Positions 1,636-21,015 of a stretch of DNA of 21,319 nt are shown piece after piece. How positions within the stretch are numbered: the first letter of the stretch is position 1; each line of letters opens with the position of its first letter. The position numbers and the translations under genes are program-made. Under the pieces are notes generated by a model. It was not told the origin of the DNA. It did no database searches and saw only the letters and a program-made list of their open reading frames with translations. Source of the stretch: a virus; IMG/VR virus record IMGVR_UViG_3300035698_021077, positions 1-21,319 of that record; one strand, written 5' to 3'.

Positions 1636-4600
1636 TTATGCTGTATATTTTATGAACAATGTTCCTTCAGTTGTTGTTGAAGCAGTAGGTGGTGAACCAG
1701 TACCATAACAAACGTTTATTATTTGATCTGTTGCTGCTGTTCCATGATCTTTTGCAACTGCATTAGAAGCTAATGTCGTATCAAGATTTCGATCATGAGA
1801 TTTTGTATAAGCAGTATCCCAATTTGTATTTTCTGTTGTACTAACATGAACACTATTTCCACCTGCAATTTCTGAATGAACATATGCTGCATTCCATTCA
1901 CCACTATCACCTGAGGCAGCAGTTAAGAGTCCACCTACATTAACACTTCCATCAGAATCAATATCCAACCAAGTTGTAAAAACTGCATCTTTTCTTGTAC
2001 CTAATATTAACTTACTATCAGTATCAGCTCCATCTCTTATAGCACCAATATAAGCAATGTTATTATCAGCACCTGGATCTTTAATTCCAAAGTATAAACC
2101 TGCTCCAAATCCATCTGCCATATCTCCTGAAGTTTCATGAGCACATTTAATAGCACCTGTCATGCTATTCGTTATGGCGGTTGGTCTAATTGCTTCAAAT
2201 GGTGGGAATGCAGCATCCCTAACTAATAATTGTCCATTAATACTTGTGTCTCCTGTGACATTTAATTTATTTCCATTCCATGTGAAATTAGTATCTGTTT
2301 CAATTTCTCCTGTAGCATTAATATGAAGGATTGCATTATCATCTGTATATTGATTAAACTGCACCAATCCACTTTCTGAATCTCCATTAAATGTGGCCAC
2401 TGCATCTCCATCAACTTGTAATTGTATTAATGAACTAAGCTCCTCACTATTTATATCTGCTTGTAAGAATAATGAACCAACTCCTGATTCAGCTGAAATT
2501 GCAGTATCTGCACCTGTGTCTGTATCTATAAAATTAATAATTGGGCTGGCACTATTAATAGTTAAATCTCCATCAATTTGTAAAGTACCTCCATCCCATG
2601 TTAAATCAGCACTTCCTGTGATTGTTGAAGAGTCTGCTCCAGTCCAAAAAGCAACTTGAGTTGTGAGTGGAGTTCCTGATATTGTAATAGGACTTCCACC
2701 TCCTCCACCTGCTGTTGGTACCCAGGTTCCATCAGCTCTTAAAAAGTTTGTTGTACCACCACCTGAAGCAGGAGCTAAACCATCAACAGCATCACCAAAA
2801 GTATCTGAAATGAGAGTATTTTTTATTTCTACATCTCCATTTCCTAAAATAGTCAGTCCGGATGTAGTTGCAGATGAACCACCAATATTAATTGGATAAA
2901 AATCTGTATCACCTTCATCATAATGATACATACGAACACAATCAGCCTCATTCAGATTGATTGTTAATCTTCTGTCTGTTTCTTCAGTGGAATATATTGA
3001 AATATTGTTTTTAAACTTAGTTTGCCCATCAATAGTTAAAGTGCCTGTAAAAGTGTCTGTAGTTTTAGCTAAATACGAAGCGTCATGTCCAATATCTAAA
3101 TTGTAAAGAGAAGTATCAGTTAATAGTAAGCTATTATTCACATGATATAAAGAGGTATCTTGAATAGTTTGATAAGTCGTTAAATTAGTTTTAGTTTCAT
3201 AAAGTCCAAATGATGCATTTCTATTAAGATCTAAATTATAAATTGATGTGTCTTGAATGAGATTATAAGCTCTTAATGCAACTACTGAAGCATCTGTTGA
3301 TTTTATCTTGAAAATAGAACTATCTTGAATTGTATCATAAAGTTTTTGTGTATAAATTGATGTGTCTTGAATGAGATTATAAGCTCTTAATGCAGTTATT
3401 GAAGCATCAGTTGATTTAATTTTGAAAATAGAACTATCTTGAATTGTATCATAAAGTTTTTGTGTATGTATTGAAGTGTCCTGAATAAGATTATAAGCTC
3501 TTAATGCAGTTATTGATGCATCAGTTGATTTTATCTTTAGAATAGATGAATCTTGAATTGTATCATAAAGTTTTTGTGTATGAATTGAAGTGTCCTGAAT
3601 AAGATTATAAGCAAGCGTACCAAAATGTACAGTTTCAAAATCAAAAGTAGTTTCTCCTGTTGCTCTTAAAAAATCTCCTGCAGTCAATCCAGTTCCTGTA
3701 TGTTTAGACAATAAATCATGTTGTTTCGGATTTCTTTCATCATCTACTGTATCTAAATCTGAACCTCCTATTATATCATTAAGATTATTTAATGTTGAAG
3801 TTATATGAATTCCATCCTCCCCGCCCAAAGCATGACTTTCAGGCTCTCTTGAATCAGATAATCTAATATCATTTCCTTCACAAACTTCGTTAGATCCATC
3901 TCCATAAGTTATAGATAAACTTCCTGAATTAAGATTTAAACCTATATCACCTTGTATTTTAATATGCCCATAAAGTGCATCAGTTGCCAATCCATATGTA
4001 GTTTCTGAAGATGCATGAGCAGTAGGTGCTTTTGCATTAAGTGAAGCATCTACATATGTTAAATCAGTTTTTAGTGTAATTGATGTGTCTTGAATGAGAT
4101 TATAAGCTCTTAATGCAACTACTGAAGCATCTGTTGATTTTATCTTGAAAATAGAACTATCTTGAATTGTATCATAAAGTTTTTGTGTATGTATTGATGT
4201 GTCCTGAATAAGATTATAAGCAGTTAAAACACCGATAGAAACATCATGAATTGGAAGAAGATTATAAGCATAATAAAATGAAGTATCTTGTATAATTTGA
4301 TAAGCATCTAATCTAATTATTGAAGCATCAGTTGATTTAATCTTGAAAATAGAACTATCTTGAATTGTATCATAAAGTTTTTGTGTATGTATTGATGTGT
4401 CCTGAATAAGTTGATAAGCGTCAATCCTGATTACACTGGCATCTAACTGATTAATTAACCTTTTATTATCATTTATTGATGTATCTCTGACTATCAGAGA
4501 TGCATCTACATACGTAATATCTGCTTTAAGTGTTATTGATGTGTCCTGAATTAATTGATAAGCATCCCTTGTTAATAATGATGGGTCTACATATGTGAAT

Positions 4601-4737
4601 TTTGTATATGGGCTTAAGTCTTGTGGTGGTGTACCAGGTGTAGAAGTACCCATAACATAAGAACCACCTGCTGGTGAGTTGTAATAATCTTCATCTACGT
4701 AATAACTATCTATTACTATACTTACATCTAATGCCAT
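1636..4737 (-). CDS. Large tail fibre with DxSI repeat stalk and beta-rich C-terminus
   Basis: This 1033-residue protein is clearly modular. Residues about 55-235 and 370-565 are stalk blocks rich in D-x-S-[IL] motifs, built mostly from a 38-residue unit (AYNLIQDTSI, LYDTIQDSSI, KSTDASI) with motif spacings of 14, 10 and 14 residues. Between them lies a segment with motifs common in phage tail fibres: HASSETTYGLATDALYGHIKI-like text and GNDIRLSDSREP (about 240-310). The C-terminal half has NFLRADGTWVP (about residue 660), many Asp/Gly/Thr beta-strand repeats (LTIDGQTKF, LQIDGDLTI, LNVTGDTSI) and a tip ending YGTGSPP...GTLFIKYTA. This fits a trimeric fibre with a receptor-binding tip. No intramolecular chaperone/peptidase domain was recognised. 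It follows the tail-hub gene by 17 nt, preceded by an A-rich leader. Fibre assignment is firm; the receptor is unknown. Confidence 0.88.
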   Translation of the reverse strand: MALDVSIVIDSYYVDEDYYNSPAGGSYVMGTSTPGTPPQDLSPYTKFTYVDPSLLTRDAYQLIQDTSITLKADITYVDASLIVRDTSINDNKRLINQLDASVIRIDAYQLIQDTSIHTQKLYDTIQDSSIFKIKSTDASIIRLDAYQIIQDTSFYYAYNLLPIHDVSIGVLTAYNLIQDTSIHTQKLYDTIQDSSIFKIKSTDASVVALRAYNLIQDTSITLKTDLTYVDASLNAKAPTAHASSETTYGLATDALYGHIKIQGDIGLNLNSGSLSITYGDGSNEVCEGNDIRLSDSREPESHALGGEDGIHITSTLNNLNDIIGGSDLDTVDDERNPKQHDLLSKHTGTGLTAGDFLRATGETTFDFETVHFGTLAYNLIQDTSIHTQKLYDTIQDSSILKIKSTDASITALRAYNLIQDTSIHTQKLYDTIQDSSIFKIKSTDASITALRAYNLIQDTSIYTQKLYDTIQDSSIFKIKSTDASVVALRAYNLIQDTSIYNLDLNRNASFGLYETKTNLTTYQTIQDTSLYHVNNSLLLTDTSLYNLDIGHDASYLAKTTDTFTGTLTIDGQTKFKNNISIYSTEETDRRLTINLNEADCVRMYHYDEGDTDFYPINIGGSSATTSGLTILGNGDVEIKNTLISDTFGDAVDGLAPASGGGTTNFLRADGTWVPTAGGGGGSPITISGTPLTTQVAFWTGADSSTITGSADLTWDGGTLQIDGDLTINSASPIINFIDTDTGADTAISAESGVGSLFLQADINSEELSSLIQLQVDGDAVATFNGDSESGLVQFNQYTDDNAILHINATGEIETDTNFTWNGNKLNVTGDTSINGQLLVRDAAFPPFEAIRPTAITNSMTGAIKCAHETSGDMADGFGAGLYFGIKDPGADNNIAYIGAIRDGADTDSKLILGTRKDAVFTTWLDIDSDGSVNVGGLLTAASGDSGEWNAAYVHSEIAGGNSVHVSTTENTNWDTAYTKSHDRNLDTTLASNAVAKDHGTAATDQIINVCYGTGSPPTASTTTEGTLFIKYTA
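3271..3612 (-). repeat. Three tandem 114-bp repeats inside the fibre gene
   Basis: Three consecutive, exactly in-phase 114-bp units (3499-3612, 3385-3498, 3271-3384) each encode 38 residues beginning AYNLIQDTSI and ending near DASITALR or DASVVALR. A fourth, truncated unit begins at 3270. The units differ by only a few bases, mainly third positions and a few substitutions (ILK/IFK, H/Y), so they are recent duplications. Confidence 0.92.
4108..4221 (-). repeat. Separate copy of the 114-bp fibre repeat
   Basis: A further complete 38-codon unit (AYNLIQDTSI to KSTDASVVALR) sits in the proximal stalk block. It is nearly identical to the tandem copies at 3271-3612 although about 500 bp away, suggesting duplication or gene conversion within the gene. 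Confidence 0.85.
4306..4419 (-). repeat. Separate, slightly diverged copy of the 114-bp fibre repeat
   Basis: This unit encodes AYQLIQDTSI through DASIIRLD, the same 38-residue layout with small changes at both ends. It lies at the N-terminal side of the stalk. Confidence 0.8.
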
Positions 4738-10761: not shown

Positions 10762-11196
10762 TTAATAATTATTTGTAGATAAATCTAATGGTCCTATTCC
10801 TTTAATAGTTCCTGCAAAAGTATTTGGTGAACTCACTTTAACACTATGAGATAATGAATCTAAAATTCCAAAGCCTGTATAATATTTGTTTGAACTTACG
10901 TCAGCAGTGTTGGGTTGTACTCTAATACCCACTGATGTATCTGACTCCATAATGTTATACATTAAATCATCATAATCAACATCTGCACCTGCATCAACAG
11001 TTTTTGTAACAAGGCCATTAAATTTTACATGCCATGACTTTAAACCACCCTTGTAATCTTTATAACCAGCTGAATTAGGATATGATGCAATTTCAAACGT
11101 ATCTTTTTTAAAATTTAGATCAAAGTCTGTGCAACAAGCCATAGCTTTATTATCAAAGTAGACAAGCATATGTTTACCAAAAAGTGGTACCGCCAT
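10762..11196 (-). CDS. Major tail (tube) protein paralogue 3
   Basis: This 144-residue protein shares the full layout of the two preceding genes: MAVPLFGKHM start, CCTDFDL, a K-S-W core (GLKSWHVKFNGLV), the DYDDLMYNIMESDTSV segment, YYTGFGILDSLSHS and GPLDLSTNNY at the end. That is the fold pattern of phage major tail proteins of the TP901-1 type, which stack as hexameric rings to form the tail tube. It is the most diverged of the three copies: it has TFEIASYPNSAGYKDYKG where the others have NTQEIPKCLG. It is last of the three in transcription order and next to the chaperones. It may be the main tube protein or a specialised ring; the sequence alone does not tell which. Confidence 0.8.
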   Translation of the reverse strand: MAVPLFGKHMLVYFDNKAMACCTDFDLNFKKDTFEIASYPNSAGYKDYKGGLKSWHVKFNGLVTKTVDAGADVDYDDLMYNIMESDTSVGIRVQPNTADVSSNKYYTGFGILDSLSHSVKVSSPNTFAGTIKGIGPLDLSTNNY

Positions 11197-11211
11197 TAGT
11201 CTATATTTATT

Positions 11212-11634
11212 TTATACTGTTGCTAATGTAAGAGGACCCGTTCCTTGTATATTTCCTGAGAATGTTACAGGACTTGCTCCAGCAGCACTAGATTGTGATA
11301 GTGAAGTTATAATTCCATAACCATCGTAATATTTGTTACTAGCTATACTAGGACGAATTGAAACGTTTACAGACGTATCTTTATTCATTACATCAAACAT
11401 CAAGTTATCATAATCTAATGTAGACGCATCTACATCAGTTCTTCTAACCATTCCATTAAATGATGCTGACCAACTTTTAAAGTCGGCTTCATGATCCATG
11501 TAACCTGTTTCACCTAAACATTTAGGTATTTCTTGAGTATTTTTTGATATTTCAAGGTCGAAGTCAGTTGTACATGAAACAACACTTGAATCATAAAAGA
11601 AACTCATATTCTTTCCAAAAAGTGGATTTGCCAT
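11212..11634 (-). CDS. Major tail (tube) protein paralogue 2
   Basis: This 140-residue protein is a close relative of its upstream neighbour: MANPLFGKNM, NTQEIPKCLGETGYM, DFKSWSASFNGMV, DYDNLMFDVMNKDTSV, YYDGYGIITSLSQSSAAG and IQGTGPLTLATV. It lacks the PADVSS residues present in both other copies, which accounts for its shorter length. The C-terminal coding part contains a 74-bp block identical to the upstream gene. It has its own A-rich leader (AACTAAATTAACAAATTAAACA before ATG), so it is separately translated. Tube or ring subunit, as for the other copies. Confidence 0.82.
   Translation of the reverse strand: MANPLFGKNMSFFYDSSVVSCTTDFDLEISKNTQEIPKCLGETGYMDHEADFKSWSASFNGMVRRTDVDASTLDYDNLMFDVMNKDTSVNVSIRPSIASNKYYDGYGIITSLSQSSAAGASPVTFSGNIQGTGPLTLATV
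11246..11319 (-). repeat. 74-bp block identical to 11714-11787
   Basis: Bases 11246-11319 in tail-tube copy 2 are identical to 11714-11787 in copy 1 (offset 468 bp), encoding the GIITSLSQSSAAG...SGNIQGTG region. Flanking coding DNA is clearly diverged. The sharp edges point to gene conversion or recombination between the copies. Confidence 0.9.
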
Positions 11635-11673
11635 TGTTTAATTTGTTAATTTAGTTTATATATTTAGTTATTA

Positions 11674-12111
11674 TTAATAACTATTTGTAGAAATGTCCAG
11701 TGGACCTGTTCCCTGTATATTTCCTGAGAATGTTACAGGACTTGCTCCAGCAGCACTAGATTGTGATAGTGAAGTTATAATTCCATATCCTTCATAATGA
11801 GTTAAAGAACTCACATCTGCAGGATTTGGTTGTATGTAAAAGTTTACAGAAGTATCTGTATTCATTACATCATACATCATATCATCATAATCTAAATCAT
11901 TTGCTTCACAATCTGTTCTAGTCACAAGTCCATTAAAACTTGCTGACCAGCTTTTAAAGTCTGGTTCATTTTCCATGTAACCAGTTTGTCCTAAGCATTT
12001 AGGGATCTCCTGAGTATTTTTTGTTACCTCAAAATCAAAGTCTGTGCAACATGCTACAGTGCTTCCATCATATATGAATTGCATGTGTTTTCCGAATAGT
12101 GGGTTTGCCAT
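11674..12111 (-). CDS. Major tail (tube) protein paralogue 1
   Basis: This 145-residue protein has the TP901-1-like major tail protein layout: MANPLFGKHM, CCTDFDFEV, NTQEIPKCLGQTGYM, DFKSWSASFNGLV, DYDDMMYDVMNTDTSV, HYEGYGIITSLSQSSAAG and GTGPLDISTNSY. It comes directly after the tail terminator-like gene, the usual site of the tube gene, and has two paralogues behind it. In families of this type one copy is enough to build the tube, so the triplication is unusual. Which copy is the bulk tube protein is not determined by the sequence. Confidence 0.85.
   Translation of the reverse strand: MANPLFGKHMQFIYDGSTVACCTDFDFEVTKNTQEIPKCLGQTGYMENEPDFKSWSASFNGLVTRTDCEANDLDYDDMMYDVMNTDTSVNFYIQPNPADVSSLTHYEGYGIITSLSQSSAAGASPVTFSGNIQGTGPLDISTNSY
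11714..11787 (-). repeat. 74-bp block identical to 11246-11319
   Basis: Partner of the identical block in the neighbouring tail-tube gene; see 11246-11319. The third paralogue is not identical over this stretch. Confidence 0.9.
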
Positions 12112-17029: not shown

Positions 17030-18715
17030 TTATGTTTGGAATTTTTTCGTAAAATCGTAGGTAACGAATTTATCAGAATTTTCCATATATGCTGATATAG
17101 CCATAGCTAGTGCTACAACACCATCAACCGCATCCAAACTTTTATTTTTCATGACTTTAATATTGCCATTACCATCTATCCAGAGAGCAACATTATAAAA
17201 TTGCCACTCAAGTGCAGGGTTATTATCAATATCAATAAGTTTATCGTAAACTAATTTTTCTATTTGTTTCAAAGGAATGTTAAAACGCATACAGGTTTGT
17301 GCAAATCCTTTTGTATATATGTAATCATCTATTTCCTTTATCTTAGGAAGAAGAAATGGCATATAGTGAGGGTCATAATAAAGAGCTTGTATATCATATT
17401 TATCATTTATATCACTTATGATGTTTTTTAACAACTCATAATCTATTGTGATAGTTGAACATTTTCTTATATATCCTTTTTCAACCCACTTTAATATATT
17501 ATATCCATTTTTTCTTATGAAATTTTGTGGATTATTAGCAAGTAAAAAATAAGGAATAACTTTTACTCTTCCATCAATATCAAAAACACATACTAGTGAA
17601 GTTAAATCTTTTGTTCCACTTAAGTCTAATCCAATCCAGCATGGTTTTCCTAATAGTTCTTCTTTATTAATATCTTTAAAACAAGGCTTTAAGGATTCTG
17701 GCTCTATCCATCCATTTTGAATATTAGGTACAAATATATTTAAATGCTTAGTCACAAATGCATTTAATTCGGATTTTTTATGTCTAGCTTTATTAAAATC
17801 AACAATTAATTCATTCTTATCTATAAGAATGTCTAATGTTGGATTTGCCTTATACCAATTATCTGTATTAGATGGGTCATCATTATCATCTAATGTGTAT
17901 AATAATGCAAATGTTTTGTCATCTTCAACTCTTTCTTCTAATATATTTTTACAATATTGTACATGATCACTAAAAAACCCTGTAGTAGAAAAGCCTGCAG
18001 ATGATATAAGATAGATTAATGAATTTTCTCTTGCTTTAGTTCCACTTACTATAACTGAATATAATGAATTATCATCATATGTATGAAGTTCATCTAAGAT
18101 TGCAGTTGATGGATGAAACCCATCAATATTATCTGCTTTTGGAGATGTTGTTTCACAATATGCAACTTCTGTTTCATCTGTTGGAATGATTCTATTTCTA
18201 ACTATACGTAATCTTTTTCTTAAAGCTGGTGAATGTTTAACAATTCTCTCTGCTCTTTCAAATGCTATATTTGATTGAGGTCTTGTATTAGCTACTAATA
18301 ATGACTCTGCATCAACTACACCATCAGCAATAAGTCCATATAATTGTAATGCTGAAGCAAATGTAGTCTTCCCATTTTTCCTAGCCATAAACAACGTACA
18401 CTCTTTATATCTTCTTCTTTCACTTTCTTTCCAATAGAACCCAAATATGTTCATAATAATAAATGTTTGGTAAGGTTCTAATTCAAATTGTGAGTATTCA
18501 TTGTTCTTATTTATGTTAATAAATGAAAAAAACTTAAAAACTCTATCTACTTTTTTTACCCGAAATTCAAGATCATCTCTATTTATATCTTTTTTAGTTC
18601 TTTCAATAGATAATTTAATCCATTTGTTTGTAATAATATCACCAGACAAAACATTATCCATGTACTCACGAGTTTTATCCCAACACAAATCACAATATTC
18701 ATTTGGATCTAACAT
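17030..18715 (-). CDS. terL: Terminase large subunit (TerL)
   Basis: This 561-residue packaging motor has both domains. In the ATPase domain the Walker A-like motif is MARKNGKT (110-117), preceded by YQTFIIMNIFGFYW (82-95), and Walker B is TAILDELH (204-211) with the catalytic Glu209. ISSAGFSTTG (237-246) is the coupling-motif region. In the nuclease domain the acidic residues are probably in CWIGLDLSGTKDL (Asp364), ALYYDPHY (Asp448) and the C-terminal LDAVDGVVALAMAI (Asp528/Asp531). The deviant ARKNGKT Walker A and this C-terminal motif fit the HK97/phage-type Terminase_1 lineage. It translocates DNA through the portal and cuts at genome ends. It follows TerS with a 9-nt gap. Confidence 0.95.
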   Translation of the reverse strand: MLDPNEYCDLCWDKTREYMDNVLSGDIITNKWIKLSIERTKKDINRDDLEFRVKKVDRVFKFFSFININKNNEYSQFELEPYQTFIIMNIFGFYWKESERRRYKECTLFMARKNGKTTFASALQLYGLIADGVVDAESLLVANTRPQSNIAFERAERIVKHSPALRKRLRIVRNRIIPTDETEVAYCETTSPKADNIDGFHPSTAILDELHTYDDNSLYSVIVSGTKARENSLIYLISSAGFSTTGFFSDHVQYCKNILEERVEDDKTFALLYTLDDNDDPSNTDNWYKANPTLDILIDKNELIVDFNKARHKKSELNAFVTKHLNIFVPNIQNGWIEPESLKPCFKDINKEELLGKPCWIGLDLSGTKDLTSLVCVFDIDGRVKVIPYFLLANNPQNFIRKNGYNILKWVEKGYIRKCSTITIDYELLKNIISDINDKYDIQALYYDPHYMPFLLPKIKEIDDYIYTKGFAQTCMRFNIPLKQIEKLVYDKLIDIDNNPALEWQFYNVALWIDGNGNIKVMKNKSLDAVDGVVALAMAISAYMENSDKFVTYDFTKKFQT

Positions 18716-18724
18716 TAATAAAAT

Positions 18725-19063
18725 TTATTTTGAATTAAAAATATCTGAGAAAAGGTCATCTTTTTCTTTAAGAAGTATTTTTAGCTTAGCTCTATCTTGA
18801 GGTGAAAGAGTAAGTTTAGTGAAGATTGTTAAGATATTTCTTAATGTCATTTGATAGGCAGACATTGACCTTGATAATTGAAAAAATGGAGCTTTATCAG
18901 CATCTCTGGTTACATCTAATTGGAATCCATTTGAATTGATATCTTCTTTTATTGTTATTAACAATTCAAGATTAAATAATAGTTCTTCTATAAGTATGTT
19001 ATCGCTATCAATATATCTCTCATTGCTCTTTAAATAATCAATTATTACTTTTTTTACATCCAT
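18725..19063 (-). CDS. terS: Terminase small subunit (P27 family-like)
   Basis: This 112-residue helical protein has the P27-type layout: a helical pair (IIDYLKSNERYIDSD, LIEELLFNLELLITIKEDI), a short G-F-Q-L-D-V turn (about 46-51), then AYQMTLRNILTIFTKLTLSPQDRAKLK, where L-x-L-S-P-x-D-R-x-K-L (84-94) is characteristic of P27-like small terminases. It recognises the packaging site and recruits TerL. It is the first gene of the late module, directly before TerL and after a non-coding island that is a candidate for the packaging site. Role is well supported by motif and position. Confidence 0.85.
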   Translation of the reverse strand: MDVKKVIIDYLKSNERYIDSDNILIEELLFNLELLITIKEDINSNGFQLDVTRDADKAPFFQLSRSMSAYQMTLRNILTIFTKLTLSPQDRAKLKILLKEKDDLFSDIFNSK

Positions 19064-19109: not shown

Positions 19110-19292
19110 ATGATACTCTGGAATAAATATAGTAAATTTCAATTTCTAATAAGAGAAACAGCACACCAAGATGTCTATTCAGCAGGATATAATACACATA
19201 GTGAATGTTTAAAAGAATATTATATTTTTAAAAAATCGGGACTTTCTTCAAAAAAAGAATTTGATAAACTAAGAGAAAAACAAAAATCTTAG
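19110..19292 (+). CDS. Small plus-strand protein, unknown function
   Basis: This 60-residue frame (MILWNKYSKFQFLIRETAHQ ... SKKEFDKLREKQKS) is the only likely gene on the plus strand. It fills most of the gap between TerS and the 250-residue gene, starts 46 nt from the divergent TerS start and ends in a strong hairpin terminator. There is a WNKYSKFQFLI beta/aromatic start, then YSAGYNTHSECLKEYYIFKK and a charged C-terminal helix. No domain is recognised, and there is no signal peptide or membrane segment. With its own terminator and opposite orientation it resembles a moron-type insertion. It could also be a chance frame, because the region is short and AT-rich; the balanced amino-acid mix and terminator make me lean to real. 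Confidence 0.5.
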   Translation: MILWNKYSKFQFLIRETAHQDVYSAGYNTHSECLKEYYIFKKSGLSSKKEFDKLREKQKS

Positions 19293-19313
19293 CTTGCTAA
19301 GGCTAAGATTTTT
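19282..19313. terminator. Bidirectional hairpin terminator
   Basis: AAAAATCTTAGC and GCTAAGATTTTT form a 12-bp perfect stem with an 8-nt loop. On the minus strand the stem is followed by GTTTTTC, ending transcription of the 250-residue gene before TerS. On the plus strand it follows the small gene, whose TAG stop lies in the stem. Its position between convergent genes fits a two-way terminator. Confidence 0.85.
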
Positions 19314-19329
19314 GACAATGAAAGGAGAT

Positions 19330-19360
19330 GTGGACCTTGCTCCACGAACATTGGAATGTT
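19330..19360. other. Two compact hairpins in a non-coding island
   Basis: GTGGA-CCTTGC-TCCAC (19330-19345) is followed by AACAT-TGGA-ATGTT (19347-19360). The segment is richer in G and C than its surroundings. It lies between the terminator and the end of the 250-residue gene. It could be part of a structured RNA, a terminator part, or the packaging site near TerS. I cannot decide. Confidence 0.3.
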
Positions 19361-20111
19361 AGAATAATTTTTTTGTTTTTAAATTATAAACATTTCTTTT
19401 TTTGTTGCCTTTTTTTCTCTCAGCATATTTATAATATTCACATAAACTATGCTCAATTTGAGCATAGTTTAAATTAGTCTTAGCTTTAACTGTTTCTAAA
19501 TCTTCACCTATAAGTCTAAGTCCTCTTATGGCTCCAATTCCTATTTCACATTCTGAATCTATATCTATATTATTATCTAAATAACTTAAATCTAAAGTAA
19601 CTTGATGTATTAAAAACAAAAGTCTACGTTTAAAATTAATAATATCAAGAATATCTTTTGTAGCTTCTTTAATAGTTATATACTTATAAGACTTAATTTT
19701 ATCTTCTATTTCTTTTAACTTTGGATAAACATATTCAATTAGATATCTCTTAACAGACATATCTTTTTCATATGAAGTAAATTGATAGACAACAAATCCT
19801 TTTTGATAACCATTAACATTTTTATAAATATAAGTTATTATTTCTTCAATACTTAAATTTTCTATTCTTTGTAAGATATCAAGTCCAGAAGATGCTATTC
19901 TATAAGTAAATATTATATAAAGTTGATGTAATAAATCTTTACCATCAATAGCAGATAATAAAGTTTGTGTGCCTTTATCATTCTTTCTATCAATATTACA
20001 AAATTTGTACTTATGTAATATCTTATCTTCTGTCCAAGGTCTTAGCAAACCACTCTCTTTTTTTAAGCGTATAGATTCTCTTTCTTTTATGAAATATAAA
20101 TAATCTTTCAT
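19359..20111 (-). CDS. Alpha-glutamyl/putrescinyl-thymine pyrophosphorylase / HMUDK helical-domain family protein
   Basis: This 250-residue all-helical protein carries motifs I recognise from the family named alpha-GPT-pyrophosphorylase, related to the helical domain of 5-hydroxymethyl-dU DNA kinases, found in phages with hypermodified thymines (SP10, phiW-14 type). They are FIKERESIRLKKESG (7-21), RPWTEDKILHKYKFCNIDRKND (24-45; usual form G-x-PRPWTxDPIL-x-x-YRFxN-x-x-R-x-x-D), GIGAIRGL (191-198), and IEHSLCEYYKYAERKKG (219-235; usual form E-x-x-LCE-x-x-KY-x-R). No P-loop is present, so this is a stand-alone helical protein, not a full kinase. Known members are thought to act on modified bases in DNA after replication. 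Its substrate here, and whether this phage has modified DNA, are inferences. It overlaps the 86-residue gene by ATGA and ends at a terminator. Confidence 0.75.
   Translation of the reverse strand: MKDYLYFIKERESIRLKKESGLLRPWTEDKILHKYKFCNIDRKNDKGTQTLLSAIDGKDLLHQLYIIFTYRIASSGLDILQRIENLSIEEIITYIYKNVNGYQKGFVVYQFTSYEKDMSVKRYLIEYVYPKLKEIEDKIKSYKYITIKEATKDILDIINFKRRLLFLIHQVTLDLSYLDNNIDIDSECEIGIGAIRGLRLIGEDLETVKAKTNLNYAQIEHSLCEYYKYAERKKGNKKRNVYNLKTKKLF
19443..19471. repeat. 13-bp perfect inverted repeat inside the coding region
   Basis: TAAACTATGCTCA and TGAGCATAGTTTA flank a 3-nt centre (ATT), near the 3' end of the 250-residue gene, coding roughly NLNYAQIEHSL. Such a perfect hairpin is rare within coding DNA. 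It could fold in the mRNA or be a DNA-binding site. Confidence 0.6.
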
Positions 20112-20368
20112 ATGTTTTTACCATCATGTTTTGCTACACAATCAAGAGCCATTTCCCAGATATCACCACCTGATAATTTTGATAATTTTTCAAATTTCTT
20201 ATTTTTTGTATGATACTCTAATGCTAATTGTTGTCCTCTCATATGTTTAAGTTTTATTCCTCTCGCTTCATAAATCATAGAAATAAATGTAGAAAACAAT
20301 CCATGATTTGTTCTAGGAGTTTGCCAATCTGATCTTTTTATTTCATTAAACTTTTTTTCGTAATTCAT
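20108..20368 (-). CDS. Small protein coupled to the thymine-modification-type gene, unknown function
   Basis: This 86-residue protein (MNYEKKFNEIKRSDWQTPRT ... LSKLSGGDIWEMALDCVAKHDGKNI) has no domain I recognise. It is basic in the first two thirds, with WQTPRTNHGLFSTFISMIYEARGIKLKHMRGQQLALEY in the middle and a helix ending GDIWEMALDCVAKH. There is no signal peptide or membrane segment. Its TGA overlaps the ATG of the 250-residue gene in ATGA, so the two are translationally coupled and likely work together or need matching amounts. It follows the 80-residue gene by 10 nt. A small accessory factor for the base-modification protein is possible but unproven. Confidence 0.7.
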   Translation of the reverse strand: MNYEKKFNEIKRSDWQTPRTNHGLFSTFISMIYEARGIKLKHMRGQQLALEYHTKNKKFEKLSKLSGGDIWEMALDCVAKHDGKNI

Positions 20369-20378
20369 TGTTTATGTT

Positions 20379-20621
20379 TTAATTAGTCTTGAAGAAATTA
20401 ACAAGGTTCTCAGGGTTATAATTTTGAAGAATTGATTCTTCATGTTCTTCATTTATAGCATAATCTGCTAATTTTTCTAATACAAATGTTTTATATTTGT
20501 CCTCATATGCATCAATAGTCTCTTGATCATACTCTTTCACTGTCTCAATTTTAAAGATAGAGCTTAACATTAAGCCTGTGTTACCATAATTTTTTGGACT
20601 TTTCAATTTCAAAGTTTTCAT
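20379..20621 (-). CDS. Small acidic protein, unknown function
   Basis: This 80-residue protein (MKTLKLKSPKNYGNTGLMLS ... YKTFVLEKLADYAINEEHEESILQNYNPENLVNFFKTN) is not recognised. The C-terminal two thirds are acidic and helical. The start at 20621 overlaps the end of the upstream gene by 41 nt; it is favoured because an A-rich leader (AATAAAAATTATAAAC) precedes it, whereas the next Met (residue 18) has none. Codon usage and layout match the neighbouring small early-type genes. Confidence 0.65.
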   Translation of the reverse strand: MKTLKLKSPKNYGNTGLMLSSIFKIETVKEYDQETIDAYEDKYKTFVLEKLADYAINEEHEESILQNYNPENLVNFFKTN

Positions 20622-21015
20622 GTTTATAATTTTTATTTTTATTAAAGAAAGTTGTAAAAGTCTTTTTTACAAATTTCATATATCTAACGTATGTTAAATC
20701 TTTTACGTATATTTTACTTGGAGCTATTTTCCTTCCTTCCATAATATGAAGATCATCTTTTACAAGAATTTTCATATTTTGTTTGAAATAATAAAATAGA
20801 TTTTTATCTATTGGAATTTCTAACCAATTATTTGTATAATTTTTGTTTTTAATGTGTCTTTTAAGAAATTTATTTTGGTCAAAGGAATAATATAATGTGA
20901 GATCATTATAATAATTGTAGATAGAATGATAATTTAACCACTTTCTCATTGAATAGAAGAAGTGTTCATACATATTATCTCGTTCTTCTTCATTAAATGT
21001 GTTAATTTTATTCAT
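20581..21015 (-). CDS. Hypothetical protein rich in aromatic and lysine residues
   Basis: This 144-residue protein (MNKINTFNEEERDNMYEHFF ... NKNYKHENFEIEKSKKLW) has unusually many Tyr, Phe, Asn and Lys residues and no recognised domain or membrane segment. The middle (LEIPIDKNLFYYFKQNMKILVKDDLHIMEGRKIAPSKIYVKDLTYVRYMKFVKKTF) alternates beta and helix. Its 3' end overlaps the next gene by 41 nt, a long overlap for this tightly packed group. It is probably a phage early or accessory protein. Confidence 0.6.
   Translation of the reverse strand: MNKINTFNEEERDNMYEHFFYSMRKWLNYHSIYNYYNDLTLYYSFDQNKFLKRHIKNKNYTNNWLEIPIDKNLFYYFKQNMKILVKDDLHIMEGRKIAPSKIYVKDLTYVRYMKFVKKTFTTFFNKNKNYKHENFEIEKSKKLW

Follow-up and report, generated by a model that had tools for sequence, protein, structure and literature searches.

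The DNA of phages M6, ViI and phiW-14 has been described as hypermodified by way of 5-hmdU (PMC6449724), and phage SPO1 has been tabulated as an hmdU phage in a group with SP8 and SP10 (PMC5977210). Profile searches of whole phage records for the 5-hmdU DNA kinase helical domain (HMUDK_hel, PF18723) detected this family in M6, ViI, phiW-14 and Ab18, and did not find it in SPO1 (plain hmdU) or T4. The family evidently bore the earlier name aGPT-Pplase1, a designation still borne by a Klebsiella phage protein ('aGPT-Pplase1 domain-containing') that scores 270 bits. To our knowledge, SP10 alone among SPO1, SP8 and SP10 carries a modification beyond hmdU, and we know of no direct assay of the biochemical role of the HMUDK_hel domain itself. 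We refer to an HMUDK_hel gene or its protein as HEL, to thymidylate-synthase homologues as TS, to PF18748 as HMUD1 and to PF18724 as ADDT. The distribution of HEL among these phages, together with the appearance of the SP10 kinase among the closest folds to the protein described below, bears out the tie to thymine hypermodification that a sequence-only reading of the present locus had put forward for the family.

The viral relatives of HEL were drawn from 80 IMG/VR loci, some of which are near-duplicates. A TS homologue occurs in the fetched flank of 76 of the 80, on the 3' side of HEL in all but one of these (75/76), and a small P-loop protein lies near HEL in about one locus in five. At the level of whole records, leaving out the window, PF00303 was detected in 39 of the 43 that carry HEL, and PF18748 and PF18724 in 9 of 43 each. 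The commonest viral arrangement is HEL with TS and no linked kinase; a highly diverged kinase may reside elsewhere in the kinase-less records. In Ab18 the P-loop kinase comes first, followed by HEL and then TS; M6 has the same order with two small ORFs inserted between HEL and TS, and HEL is far removed from TS in ViI, phiW-14 and PWKp5 (in the last, HEL is at 21.7 kb and the kinase and TS at 72 kb). Four HMUDK_hel records of 44-144 kb (L012, L028, L072 and L079), which may be fragments, have no detectable TS. A search of TS-less records for TET/JBP, an alternative source of hmU, gave no match, and the controls were silent as well, so that this result is not evidence of absence. The pairing of viral HELs mostly with TS, and not with a linked kinase, means that the biochemical role of the domain itself deserves testing.

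The locus examined here lies in a 21,319-bp stretch of viral DNA (the window; IMG/VR record IMGVR_UViG_3300035698_021077), of which the following features are relevant:

19359-20111, minus strand: HEL, 5-hmdU DNA kinase helical domain (ex aGPT-Pplase1), 250 aa (PF18723, 1.5e-24; alignment of 49 relatives; AlphaFold model)
20108-20368, minus strand: ORF of 86 aa just upstream of HEL, no family (ORF list, family searches)
20379-20621, minus strand: ORF of 80 aa, putatively in the HEL operon, no family (ORF list, family searches)
20581-21015, minus strand: ORF of 144 aa, putatively the first visible gene of the operon, no family (ORF list, family searches)
19281-19314, no strand assigned: intrinsic-terminator-like hairpin with a 13-bp stem, after HEL (terminator-like site scan)
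19110-19292, plus strand: ORF of 60 aa between HEL and TerS, maybe not a gene, no family (ORF list, family searches)
18725-19063, minus strand: TerS, start of the packaging and morphogenesis run (PF05119, Terminase_4, 2.9e-6; phrog_83/361)
17030-18715, minus strand: TerL (PF20441, 1e-41; PF03354, 2e-26)

The ORF first noticed at 19359-20111 is real, with the correction that it belongs to the minus strand, on which it is intact over 250 aa; the plus strand there has many stops. Its product matches PF18723 at 87.3 bits (E = 1.5e-24; curated cut-off, 25 bits), far above chance, over residues 2-206 and a second, C-terminal stretch, and scores 119.6 bits against a profile built from 48 relatives; PHROG 2396 (function unknown) matches it at 2.6e-22. 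A single-sequence first scan with the protein found zero relatives. All four motifs singled out from the sequence, RPWTEDKIL, YKFCN, GIGAIRGL and LCEYYKY, fall on the most conserved columns in the alignment of 49 relatives. Of the profile families proposed at the outset, HMUDK_hel was recovered. An ADDT identity could be discarded, the protein having no PF18724 match in Pfam. Nor does it match PF18748. The reported lack of a P-loop is correct, there being no Walker A motif, but it is not a special trait, as most viral relatives are HELs beside a TS with no linked kinase. Membership in the HMUDK_hel family is secure, to the point of near certainty, and the window HEL is a genuine, highly diverged new addition to an already known phage family.

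The extent of that divergence is considerable. No relative is more than 31% identical to the window HEL, whereas all others in the set have a best identity of 42% or higher, and its branch, at 3.79 (median 0.58), is the longest in a tree of 55 sequences, in which it falls among phage HELs and outside the Bacteroidota chromosomal clade, a placement that is unsure because of the long branch. Its composition is skewed. Of 49 positions that at least 85% of the relatives have in common, it keeps 34 and changes 15, with some of these calls resting on local alignment; the changes include the N of R..N, the P of GPG, the second G of GEG and the D of CEFDKY. Several residues that are invariant in the 48 relatives have been lost, and the C-terminal part is shortened, the stretch ahead of LCEYYKY being missing. 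All 16 family-invariant alignment columns are kept, and the second-longest branch in the tree belongs to gp72 of phiW-14, a phage with known hypermodified DNA.

The AlphaFold model of the window HEL (pLDDT 84) found as its best named folds in BFVD the HMUDK_hel proteins of phiRSL1 and phiW-14, the SP10 5-hmdU DNA kinase and ADDT proteins, in agreement, at the level of predicted fold, with the earlier assignment to the helical domain of the kinase group. In the PDB this model matched an AGOG-type glycosylase weakly (E 0.19, TM 0.47), and the model of a canonical relative (L017, pLDDT 93.5) matched best the PaMx11 5-PmdU glycinyltransferase (8z2n/8z2m; E 0.21, probability 0.97, TM 0.49), followed by the HhH glycosylases AlkA, OGG1 and MutY. 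The PDB E-values for both models, at about 0.2 or worse, are individually non-significant; because the two models agree, they suggest a glycosylase-like, base-handling fold and argue for a predicted HMUDK_hel architecture that is helical and HhH-glycosylase/ADDT-like.

The long branch and the lost invariant positions might mean that a small temperate phage acquired HEL as an accessory gene, and that the protein has kept its fold but dropped out of any thymine-modification pathway, through repurposing or decay. The lack of any pathway gene in the 21 kb and the absence of HEL from nine relatives of the window phage (see below) point the same way, against which stand the intact ORF, the retention of 16 of 16 family-invariant columns, the confident model and the second-longest branch, that of gp72 from the hypermodified phage phiW-14. 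We consider this outcome rather unlikely, though it is the alternative to be taken most seriously. The best single reading is still that the window phage modifies thymine and uses HEL in that pathway, which is plausible and which we put at about an even chance, given an incomplete genome and a HEL that is an outlier; it draws support from the family assignment, the fold resemblance and the way in which the family as a whole goes together with TS and with phages known to be hypermodified.

Under the thymine-modification reading, HMUDK_hel would be an all-helical, HhH-DNA-glycosylase-like domain, most likely binding phage DNA, that would flip out a thymine derivative, either 5-hmdU or its phosphate, and offer it for modification. 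Its partners would be a TS homologue that hydroxymethylates and a P-loop kinase acting on 5-hmdU; the product might protect the DNA from restriction. A search for such partners, which had been suggested from the sequence, showed no TS (dUMP hydroxymethylase), no PF18748 kinase and no PF18724 in the 21,319-bp record, itself apparently an incomplete virus fragment. The usual order of HEL then TS is missing as well, the 3' side of HEL being fully visible and consisting of structural genes. The partners would then have to be encoded at a distance, in genome sequence beyond this record (ViI/PWKp5 and phiW-14 have such remote partners), or the host would have to provide them. HMUDK_hel proteins evidently reach apparently small temperate phages in which no pathway is visible, and if the virion DNA of such a phage were modified, it would represent a minimal thymine-modification system.

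HEL closes a run of at least four ORFs on the minus strand. The 86-aa ORF upstream, which has no P-loop, overlaps its start by 4 bp (ATGA), and the two are probably translationally coupled. The hairpin that follows HEL, one of 3 terminator-like sites found versus 0.3 expected, also marks the 3' end of the opposite-strand 60-aa ORF. TerS, the next same-strand gene downstream, opens a new run, and the remainder of the window encodes a head and tail module of siphovirus type (TerL, portal, S78 protease, capsid, major tail protein and tape measure). At 10762-12111 the window carries a tandem array of three paralogous genes for major-tail-like proteins (144, 140 and 145 aa) and, at 1636-4737, a 1033-aa protein with abundant repeats of the AYNLIQDTSI/DASI type that is probably a tail fibre. 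GC content is 29% for the window and 23% for HEL. With the entire window as query, megablast against phages gave no match, and a search of viral_contigs for close relatives of the 144-aa ORF and the capsid gene found none. None of 22 genes checked has a Shine-Dalgarno site and their leaders are A-rich; these traits, with the Arm-DNA-bind_5/SAM_5 integrase of a relative (L086), make the Bacteroidota host proposed earlier plausible.

The earlier remark that HEL sits beside the packaging genes holds for distance, TerS being 295 bp downstream, but not for transcription, as the hairpin and the opposite-strand ORF lie between separate units. That HEL is a terminase accessory or otherwise packaging-related might be argued from this proximity and from the name 'terminase small subunit' given to some HEL and HMUD1 genes in phage records. 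The window phage already has a TerS of its own, HEL occupies its own transcription unit closed by the terminator-like hairpin, and the examples checked match PF18723 or PF18748, so that the name is probably a spreading misannotation (HMUD1 kinases or HMUDK_hel proteins so named occur in M6 NC_007809, gp54, and in PP974339, PQ066595 and PP931173). With the terminator between, and no HEL beside the terminase in nine relatives by portal and TerL, we rejected the packaging role as very improbable; the placement looks like operon geography.

HEL was sought in these nine portal/TerL relatives and found in none, several of them being short fragments and no positive control being among them; the same profile found HEL elsewhere in 12 of 15 records. 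Their records are at most 31 kb, and no DNA polymerase was noticed among the ORFs listed. Unexpectedly, L127 (lineage G447), the related L139, and L140 carry a truncated TS homologue of 142-154 aa ahead of TerS, in the slot that HEL occupies in the window, with at most one ORF of about 55-60 aa separating it from TerS. The truncated homologues in relatives of the window phage (140-154 aa; all but one lie shortly ahead of TerS) are:

L127, 7135-7593
L139, 8001-8465
L140, 8001-8429
L132, 181-603, minus strand

A truncated TS of the same kind stands at a contig end in lineage G445, where it would adjoin TerS only if the contig were circular; no overlap of the contig ends was found. The catalytic Cys and the RS motif are kept, and in place of the base-recognition Asn of classical TS there is an Asp, as in the dCMP hydroxymethylase of T4. 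A profile of the truncated TS gave nothing significant against all frames of the window. It is conceivable, at the level of a doubtful conjecture, that a lineage of small temperate phages, whose hosts are probably Bacteroidota, keeps diverged and minimised parts of the thymidylate-modification machinery in the pre-TerS slot (a short HEL in the window, a truncated TS with its catalytic Cys in relatives), and that these work as a pared-down base modifier or counter the defence exerted by a host operon of TS, kinase and HEL.

Such operons exist. Strong PF18723 proteins (295-382 bits) occur in 6 of 395 genomes sampled from the phylum to which the L100 genome (titled Cytophagaceae) belongs, in addition to that genome, and the Bacteroidota chromosomal loci L108-L113 carry dTMP-kinase-like, TS and dCTP-deaminase-like (DCD) genes beside HEL; L110 encodes a kinase-HEL fusion of 563 aa. 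A 5-hydroxymethyluracil kinase and TS are among newly validated anti-phage defence domains (PMC13092281), and the Bacteroidota operons might be the same system. If so, the phage-borne HEL, like the truncated TS homologues in the relatives, could interfere with the chromosomal TS/dTMP-kinase-like/HEL operon, for which these neighbours and the validated systems speak. The window HEL groups with phage HELs and not with the chromosomal clade, if unsurely on its long branch; we hold this putative function to be improbable.

Among known systems, M6 gp55, Ab18 ORF13 and ViI Vi01_130c resemble the window HEL in family, motifs, fold and stand-alone polypeptide; they are longer, and their genomes hold TS and an HMUD1 kinase (adjacent in M6 and Ab18, unlinked in ViI), whereas no partner is seen for the window HEL, whose identity with its relatives does not exceed about 31%. 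The Bacteroidota chromosomal HELs have the PF18723 domain and adjoin TS; they differ in being chromosomal, full-length and strong members (295-382 bits) and in forming a different clade. The PaMx11 ADDT, or 5-PmdU glycinyltransferase (8z2n), is similar in fold by structure comparison of the family models and differs in acting at another reaction step and in its PF18724 domain, which the window protein does not match. The SP10 5-hmdU DNA kinase (F8WQ30) aligns with the window model (TM 0.69 by query) and is much larger, at 637 aa, its extra part presumably being the P-loop kinase that the window protein does without. The phiW-14 gp72 (C9DG43) is, like the window HEL, divergent and unlinked, with a PF18723 score of 92 versus 87 bits; unlike it, gp72 is full-length (335 aa), has a TS elsewhere in its 157-kb genome and belongs to a phage whose DNA is known to be hypermodified.
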